Shown piece after piece: positions 33,135 through 33,446 of a stretch of DNA of 64,000 bases. A model generated the notes under the pieces. It saw nothing but the letters and a program-made list of their open reading frames with translations, ran no database searches and was not told the origin of the DNA. The stretch comes from Flavobacteriaceae bacterium (GTDB taxonomy: Bacteria > Bacteroidota > Bacteroidia > Flavobacteriales > Flavobacteriaceae): assembly GCA_029238215.1 (NCBI GenBank), contig JAQWGN010000008.1:1-64000 (forward strand), in the 5' to 3' direction. Within the stretch, counting starts at the first letter, position 1. Every line of letters starts with the position of its first letter. The position numbers and the translations under genes were made by a program.

Positions 33135-33163
33135 CAAAAAACCCCTTCTTTATGAAGGGGTTT
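33135..33163 (-). terminator. Terminator of the tRNA-Gln transcript
   Basis: On the minus strand AACCCCTTC-ATAAA-GAAGGGGTT followed by T residues, three bases past the tRNA 3' end. A textbook intrinsic terminator. Confidence 0.88.
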
Positions 33164-33165
33164 TG

Positions 33166-33238
33166 TTGGCCTACTAGGGCTCGAACCTAGACTCTTCTGA
33201 ACCAAAATCAGACGTGTTGCCAGTTACACCATAGGCCA
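33166..33238 (-). tRNA. tRNA-Gln (anticodon TTG)
   Basis: On the minus strand the acceptor stem TGGCCTA pairs with TAGGCCA. The anticodon arm is TCTGA-TTTTGGT-TCAGA, giving anticodon TTG, and the T arm contains GGTTCGAGCC. The 3' CCA is not encoded. It is followed at once by a terminator. A broken relative lies just upstream at 33286-33368. Confidence 0.95.
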
Positions 33239-33285
33239 AAATTTCAAATTCCGTTTTAAGTCGGAAAAAAACTCCCTTCAAAAAC

Positions 33286-33368
33286 GGTCTGATTTTGAAT
33301 CAGACCTGCCTGCGGCAGGCAGGCGTGTTGCCCGCTTGGCTGCCTTTGGTAGCTTACACCATAGGCCA
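33286..33368 (-). pseudogene. Broken 5'-half copy of tRNA-Gln carrying palindromic inserts
   Basis: Read on the minus strand, it begins with the same 15 bases as the intact tRNA-Gln (TGGCCTATGGTGTAA). Some 21 foreign bases follow, then GGCAACACG as in the tRNA, then a 19-base perfect hairpin, then TCTGATT of the anticodon stem mirrored into a second perfect hairpin. The T arm and 3' acceptor strand are missing, so no functional tRNA can form. It lies 47 bases upstream of the real tRNA in the same orientation. Confidence 0.8.
33305..33323. repeat. Perfect palindrome (8-base stem) inside the tRNA-Gln remnant
   Basis: CCTGCCTG-CGG-CAGGCAGG. It abuts a second perfect hairpin at 33286-33306 (GGTCTGATT-TTG-AATCAGACC). 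GC-rich palindromes of this kind recur in flavobacterial genomes, though I cannot count copies here since only one is in the window. Confidence 0.8.
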
Positions 33369-33446
33369 ATGAGGCTGCAAAAATAAGATAAAGTTTTTGT
33401 TGCACCAATAGTTTAAAAAATCTTGTGTGTGTTTTTATAGAAATTG

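Follow-up and report, generated by a model that had tools for sequence, protein, structure and literature searches.

tRNA genes are integration sites of integrases, and the arrangement described here, a displaced tRNA piece together with a restored intact tRNA gene, resembles such a site. Nevertheless, the tRNA-Gln copy of this locus repeats the 5′ half of the gene and is interrupted by palindromes, and no integrase-bearing element was found between tRNA-Gln and its copy, which are only 48 nt apart.

SegB of the T-even phages is the nearest known system and the best experimental parallel to the mechanism proposed below. In the accessible portions of the reports, SegB of T4/T6 is a free-standing GIY-YIG homing endonuclease encoded beside tRNA genes (PMC2988022, PMC13096335). 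Its cleavage peaks lie inside tRNA genes, it drives tandem amplification of a tRNA segment, and the tRNA 5′ end shares microhomology with the 3′ end of segB (PMC13096335). As far as these portions go, a GIY-YIG gene beside tRNA genes and the tandem units are common to both systems. However, SegB is phage-borne, whereas the flavobacterial genes are chromosomal and encode proteins of about 80 aa that cluster by tRNA kind. Furthermore, the same portions describe no displaced palindrome-split tRNA copies (PMC2988022, PMC13096335), the string "palindrom" being absent from the main text of PMC13096335, and the nuclease gene is missing at the tRNA-Gln locus of the window (the whole stretch of 64,000 nucleotides of Flavobacteriaceae DNA that was analysed).

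REP sequences, mobilised in REP/RAYT systems, are also comparable, as these are short dispersed palindromes able to interrupt other sequences, according to the portions available (PMC3733652, PMC6006769), and in most of them the palindrome has a GTAG or CGTC tag at its foot (PMC3733652). Unlike these, the 19-mer of the window has neither tag on direct reading, and the flavobacterial palindromes associate with GIY-YIG genes and not with Y1 transposases. REP/RAYT was rejected as the source of the palindromes: among the 17 genus genomes, Y1_Tnp (PF01797) was found in two, and no match was obtained in the four that carry the copy (G000, G009, G010 and G016; assemblies 80-89% complete). A 2006 survey of GIY-YIG proteins contains none of the terms Bacteroid-, Flavobacter- and Cytophaga in its main text, where none of the three passages on tRNA deals with gene neighbours (PMC1564403). 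Within the part of the literature covered, no report was found that brings together GIY-YIG genes, palindromes and displaced tRNA pieces in Flavobacteriaceae.

Anatomy and conservation of the tRNA-Gln half copy

A copy of the 5′ half of tRNA-Gln was observed at 33287-33368 of the minus strand, between the sole -7-like box and the intact tRNA-Gln gene. The parts of the locus, in the direction of the tRNA, are the following:

33378-33385, minus strand: -7-like box TATTTTTG; no other TAnnTTTG lies in the 260 nt upstream of the tRNA in any of the four copy-bearing genomes
33354-33368, minus strand: displaced tRNA-Gln nt 1-15 (TGGCCTATGGTGTAA), with no mismatch to the intact tRNA at its 5′ end
33333-33353, minus strand: D-loop insert of 21 nt replacing the native CT, an imperfect hairpin
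33324-33332, minus strand: displaced tRNA-Gln nt 18-26 (GGCAACACG), 9/9 in the four genomes
33305-33323, no strand assigned: perfect 19-nt palindrome CCTGCCTGC-G-GCAGGCAGG, at the joint of tRNA nt 26/27
33287-33304, minus strand: displaced anticodon arm, inverted (TCTGATTCAAAATCAGAC), TCTGATT...; part of the 33286-33306 hairpin, 18/18 in the four genomes
33239-33286, minus strand: spacer of 48 nt, with a T-arm remnant recognisable only in G009 (CTAGGTTCGAT)
33165-33238, minus strand: intact tRNA-Gln, anticodon TTG (ARAGORN; RF00005, 63.6 bits)
33136-33164, minus strand: terminator-like hairpin and T run after the tRNA (direct reading)

The box TATTTTTG is one that we take to be of the Bacteroidetes promoter type (-7 motif consensus). 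The tRNA-Gln(TTG) gene was the sole tRNA gene called by ARAGORN in the window, and the half copy, which lies upstream of it on the same strand, was called neither by ARAGORN nor by Rfam. A divergent TMEM260-like gene (PF11028) is found on the promoter side and rimP (PF02576) on the other side.

All of the tRNA-Gln pieces named in the original prediction were located on the minus strand of 33287-33368, in the order and place given there, and the perfect 19-base palindrome, which reads CCTGCCTGCCGCAGGCAGG on the tRNA strand, was found as described. The six-pair hairpin announced for the 21-base insert was present as well, but one of its pairs is a G-T pair on the plus strand, that is, an A-C mismatch on the tRNA strand. 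The hairpin at 33286-33306, described as a perfect one formed by mirroring of the anticodon-stem end, is indeed perfect (9 bp with a 3-nt loop); what had been missed is that the arm is inverted, the displaced 18-mer matching the reverse complement of the real arm at 16/18 positions and its direct order at 12/18.

In this genome, the displaced copy follows the box after 9 nt and the intact tRNA follows it after 139 nt. Five relatives that lack the copy have their nearest TAnnTTTG 9 nt ahead of the intact tRNA, and a box was present within 30 nt of the tRNA in 65 of another 69 tRNA-Gln loci (L069-L144, assumed to be other genera on the basis of 60-72% protein identity). Since the same 9 nt separate the box from the copy here and from the tRNA in the relatives, the displaced piece is judged to occupy the original place of the tRNA behind its promoter. 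Lying downstream of the sole TAnnTTTG box, the half copy is probably co-transcribed with tRNA-Gln.

The tRNA-Gln locus was found in 14 of the 17 genomes of the genus, the assemblies of which are incomplete. The chimera was present in four of these 14 (G000, which is this genome, G009, G010 and G016), and its recurrence in three other genomes excludes chance as the source of the half copy. The original prediction had named the lack of a conserved position in relatives as an argument against a mobile element; in these four genomes the position is conserved. Among the bearers, the palindrome is kept at 18-20 of 19-20 positions and the spacer at 29-44 of 47, in addition to the invariant nt 18-26 (9/9) and arm (18/18), and nt 1-15 with the preceding T match at 16/16 positions in G009 and G016 and at 13/16 in G010. 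The D-loop insert has the same length in G009 (13/21 identical) and G010 (18/21 identical), G016 carries the palindrome with the native CT instead of the insert, and G009 retains a T-arm piece. The box stands directly before the tRNA, with no copy, in G002, G003, G008, G013 and G015; in G001, G004, G006, G007 and G014, box and tRNA are separated by 64-81 nt with no recognisable copy.

In a tree of the TMEM260-like neighbour gene (13 genus rows, G004 left out, several forks open), the copy-bearers were scattered: G010 is sister to the copy-free G015, G016 lies outside both, and close relatives are among the genomes that lack the copy. Since the breakpoints are identical in species scattered on this tree, one old origin with several losses of the copy is suggested, and some relatives may have lost it by recombination between the direct repeats.

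Beyond the genus, at L069 (TMED81, another lineage), 12 nt from the 5′ end of tRNA-Gln, mismatched at one position, were read by eye in the same place, together with a related hairpin. A 12-mer scan for upstream tRNA-Gln copies in 73 loci found none because the copies at L066 and L069, both read by eye, have diverged. A search for the split tRNA-Gln copy in 397 family genomes matched 12, of which only G000 and G016 were real by the matched text; the other 10 were rejected as unrelated inserts.

Palindromes and split copies of other tRNA genes

Recurrence of the 19-base palindrome in the genome, which the original prediction had proposed to look for, was found in part: the exact 19-mer occurs once, and a variant splits a tRNA-Gly copy. 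The 111-nt region also occurs once, and a mobile copy elsewhere in the genome was discarded. The looser pattern CCTGCC-N3-9-GGCAGG was present at two places in this genome, both inside displaced tRNA copies (Gln and Gly). Within the genus, CCTGCCTGC-N0-3-GCAGGCAGG was found at seven places in five of the 17 genomes. Some palindrome sites of the genus split or adjoin tRNA-Gln, tRNA-Arg(tct) or tRNA-Asn pieces, and the remaining ones that were read are intergenic hairpins or terminators. The same type was present in 32 of 149 family genomes, with up to 18 copies, and the pattern written backwards was absent from all 149. The palindrome of G013 at L035 was considered as part of a decayed tRNA and rejected; it adjoins a fragment of the tRNA-Asn 3′ end, which was met again at tRNA-Asn loci and resembles an attachment site.

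When the 36 tRNAs of this genome were compared with their own flanks, five matches of at least 20 bits lay outside tRNAs, two of them being the tRNA-Gln half copy; a control with reversed tRNAs gave five matches, all inside tRNA genes by their coordinates. Partial copies were thus observed at tRNA-Gln, tRNA-Gly, tRNA-Ala(ggc) and tRNA-Arg(tct). At L147 (G000:C12:33500-35300), a 3′ copy of tRNA-Gly(gcc) begins 57 nt after the intact gene, just before tRNA-Leu(taa), and reads AGTCGCG, a 20-nt palindrome and GGTTCAATCCCGTC... At L154 (G000:C6:82800-84200, on the same contig, outside the window), tRNA-Ala(ggc) is preceded by a palindrome-split partial copy made of nt 1-22, a GC palindrome and then GAGCGC. 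The small frame between this copy and the intact tRNA-Ala matches PF01541 (GIY-YIG; E 1.1e-16) and ends inside the intact tRNA-Ala, its stop codon TAG lying in GGGGATGTAG. In the tRNA-Arg(tct) copy of the genus, a similar palindrome was found exactly between nt 9/10 in G003, G006, G009 and one of the two tandem copies of G010, and was absent at this site in G000, G014 and the other G010 copy. These copies show the presence and absence of an insert at one site.

Similar arrangements were read elsewhere in the family. The exact 19-mer of the window was found between nt 22 and 23 of a displaced tRNA-Arg(tcg) copy, beside GIY-YIG genes, at L247 and L249, so that an identical palindrome is common to the tRNA-Gln copy and to members that bear the nuclease gene. 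At L252, three palindromes interrupt a 5′ copy of tRNA-Arg(tcg), which is separated from the intact tRNA by a short spacer, as at tRNA-Gln. At L251, the intact tRNA-Met gene comes after a tandem series of at least four partial copies, three or more of which have an unbroken palindrome. At neither locus does a GIY-YIG gene lie between the copies and the intact tRNA, and each has one on the other side of the tRNA. The inverted anticodon arm had no counterpart in the other displaced copies that were read.

A few further observations were made on displaced tRNA pieces. Another palindrome, TCCCGATAGCTATCGGGA, stands at the break of displaced tRNA-Pro(ggg), tRNA-Asn and tRNA-Arg(cct) copies (L273, L314, L324 and L326); it spans several genera, with variants in L319 and L327 and CCCC...GGGG variants at tRNA-Asn and tRNA-Met. 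In this genome, 3′ copies of tRNA-Met (49 nt; L172, C19) and tRNA-Asn (47 nt; L173, C17) lie near contig starts and are probably attachment sites of integrated elements. Additionally, 3′ copies of tRNA-Gln were found downstream of the gene in 12 of 73 loci (including L143, L097, L100, L106, L114, L115, L118 and L141), several with copied terminators, joined to a shared variable sequence, GGCGAGAAG...GAGCGNAGYCGA... Three tandem 3′ units were present in L143, and a similar unit occurs twice at tRNA-Met in L256. No clean hairpin was seen in the shared insert of the nine 3′ copies read, which disfavours a universal palindrome rule.

Small GIY-YIG genes beside tRNA genes

In the genus, small GIY-YIG frames were found beside tRNA-Ala, tRNA-Arg(tct) and tRNA-Met, and a partial tRNA copy flanks most of these frames on the far side; other small GIY-YIG frames lie away from tRNAs. 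As a genus control, no tRNA was present at any of 19 loci fetched for longer GIY proteins, those with frames of at least 458 aa. A profile, A1, was built from seven tRNA-linked proteins, in which the positions of the GIY-YIG catalytic type are invariant. At E 1e-8 or better, it had matches in 97 of the 149 family genomes, a few of the matches being longer proteins. NCBIfam gave no name for these proteins, and the nearest solved chains were UPF0213 proteins and SLX1.

Ninety loci were fetched, 30 of them best hits and 60 hand-picked further down among the matches listed. A tRNA was found within 150 nt of the GIY-YIG gene at 61 of the 90: at 24/30 best-hit loci, a figure biased because A1 was built from tRNA-linked proteins, and at 37/60 further loci, where the bias is smaller. 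At the other 29 loci no tRNA was found within that distance. Gene and tRNA were on the same strand in all 61 cases, the gene lying upstream in 35 and downstream in 26. Fifteen ordinary tRNA kinds were represented at these 61 loci, and tRNA-Gln was not among them.

Two of the 61 loci, called SeC or Stop tRNAs, were left out of the break test and of the tree. A displaced copy (exact run of at least 12 nt) was observed at 47 of the remaining 59 loci and not found by this exact-run test at 12. The broken end carried a hairpin of at least 6 bp with at least 4 G/C in 38 of the 47 displaced copies, and the other nine had no GC hairpin at the break; among 1572 control windows taken from these loci, such a hairpin was seen in 41. 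A strict scan of the 90 loci for insert-split copies gave 13 rows in 10 loci, among them one run-of-N artefact (L264) and two rows for the same insert (L282). Furthermore, among the matches listed, 6 of 75 palindrome sites lay within 50 nt of a GIY-YIG gene, where 0.02 would be expected under uniform placement. A class of loci was observed in Flavobacteriaceae, in which a partial tRNA split by at least one GC-rich palindrome lies beside an intact copy of that tRNA, often with a GIY-YIG gene of about 80 aa between or beside them.

The GIY-YIG tree (57 rows, being 52 of the 59 tRNA-adjacent loci and five genus proteins; rows with stops or shorter than 60 aa were dropped) clustered by tRNA kind across genera, with 19 changes against a shuffled mean of 43.9 and none of 200 shuffles as low. 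The five Leu(caa) proteins, from five genera, formed one clade. The deeper forks are unsure because the alignment has only 82 columns. Small GIY-YIG genes away from tRNAs (L193, L196, L197, L209 and L229) were seen by eye to be flanked by other repeated hairpin-like sequences, as if each of these nucleases had its own palindrome.

At tRNA-Gln itself, no GIY-YIG relative was found around the TMEM260-like gene in 80 fetched loci, 75 of them with a tRNA-Gln match, when searched with 15 queries (two being misread fragments of 21 and 17 aa). No small GIY-YIG gene lies between or beside the tRNA-Gln copies of the window. The sole small GIY-YIG frame found in this genome is the one at tRNA-Ala, 50 kb from tRNA-Gln.

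Origin of the half copy

The explanation that we favour, with somewhat better than even confidence, is that the half copy derives from the original tRNA-Gln gene, of which it would be the displaced 5′ part, and is a GIY-YIG-less relic of the split-tRNA class of Flavobacteriaceae. In favour of it are the chimera conserved in four species at the native promoter distance, the association of GIY-YIG genes with tRNAs and palindromes, and the clustering of the nucleases by tRNA kind, all of which were observed; the steps of the mechanism that follows are inferred. A GIY-YIG nuclease specific for one type of tRNA, either in cis long ago or in trans, would have cut the tRNA gene, and repair would have left a partial tandem duplication, so that the cell kept one intact tRNA. 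Palindromes would then have entered the redundant copy, mostly at tRNA joints or loops, breaking the target of the nuclease. The nuclease gene would finally have been lost from tRNA-Gln, or never have been present there, and a short relic split by palindromes would have stayed behind in the leader of the tRNA. The presence of a nuclease at this locus is an assumption, and its link to the tRNA-Gln copy is one of analogy because none was found in the 80 loci. The proposal is also weakened by the GIY-YIG loci that have no tRNA close by, no displaced copy or no GC hairpin at the break, by the 3′ tRNA-Gln copies read without a clean hairpin and by the inverted arm, which no other displaced copy read shares. 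It also counts against the proposal that a GIY-YIG protein of about 80 aa is too small to hold a separate DNA-binding domain like that of known homing enzymes; a protein of this size related to UPF0213 and SLX1 might recognise a DNA structure, such as the palindrome itself, instead of the tRNA gene.

An ordinary tandem duplication of tRNA-Gln, the upstream copy of which decayed and collected REP-like or template-switch palindromes with no nuclease involved, would account for the absence of GIY-YIG genes around tRNA-Gln and for the dispersal of the palindrome over the family, intergenic hairpins included. Quasi-palindrome template switching is a mechanism for inverted, perfected arms, and the anticodon arm fits it. 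However, break palindromes occur in copies of many tRNA kinds, with GIY-YIG genes, far above background, and both CCTGCC-N3-9-GGCAGG sites of this genome lie inside displaced tRNA copies; we consider this duplication unlikely, although it deserves to be kept in view. One suggestion of the original prediction, a decayed duplicate that took in small palindromes, is supported by the position kept in 4/14 genomes, by the dispersal of the palindrome in the family and by the insert present or absent at one site of tRNA-Arg(tct).

The other role suggested in the original prediction, a structured leader or decoy of the tRNA transcript, would depend on base pairing of the real tRNA with the displaced acceptor strand and the inverted arm, which would tune folding or processing. 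Such pairing does appear in the predicted fold of leader and tRNA, the copy is downstream of the sole -7-like box, and the arm is 18/18 in four species despite a diverged spacer. The leader also folds below shuffles (z -4.15), but its GC-rich palindromes alone could lower the folding energy to that extent, and perfect hairpins can be kept by template switching. Moreover, the function is unsupported because 10 of the 14 genus genomes with the locus, close relatives included, do without the copy, and we regard it as improbable. Hardly any weight is given to an attachment-site scar left in tRNA-Gln by an integrase-type element: the 3′ copies of tRNA-Met and tRNA-Asn in this genome do look like attachment sites, whereas at tRNA-Gln it is the 5′ half that is repeated, the copy is interrupted twice and the 48-nt spacer holds no element.

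Under the favoured reading of a relic of the split-tRNA class, a wider picture can be drawn tentatively, at rather less than even confidence. The small proteins may form a minimal chromosomal GIY-YIG family, each lineage of which is dedicated to one tRNA gene that it would invade, leaving an intact replacement and locking the displaced target with a palindrome. Palindrome and nuclease would be partners, in the manner of REP and RAYT, and the tRNA-Gln copy would be a non-autonomous product. If this is true, essential tRNA genes of a large bacterial family would have been repeatedly invaded by tiny nuclease genes that restore the tRNA, and the partner enzyme of the scattered palindromes would be distinct from the known REP transposases. 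Half tRNAs, which easily escape notice, would be explained as well, and more of them could be found by a simple rule, namely to look beside intact tRNAs for tRNA pieces split by palindromes.
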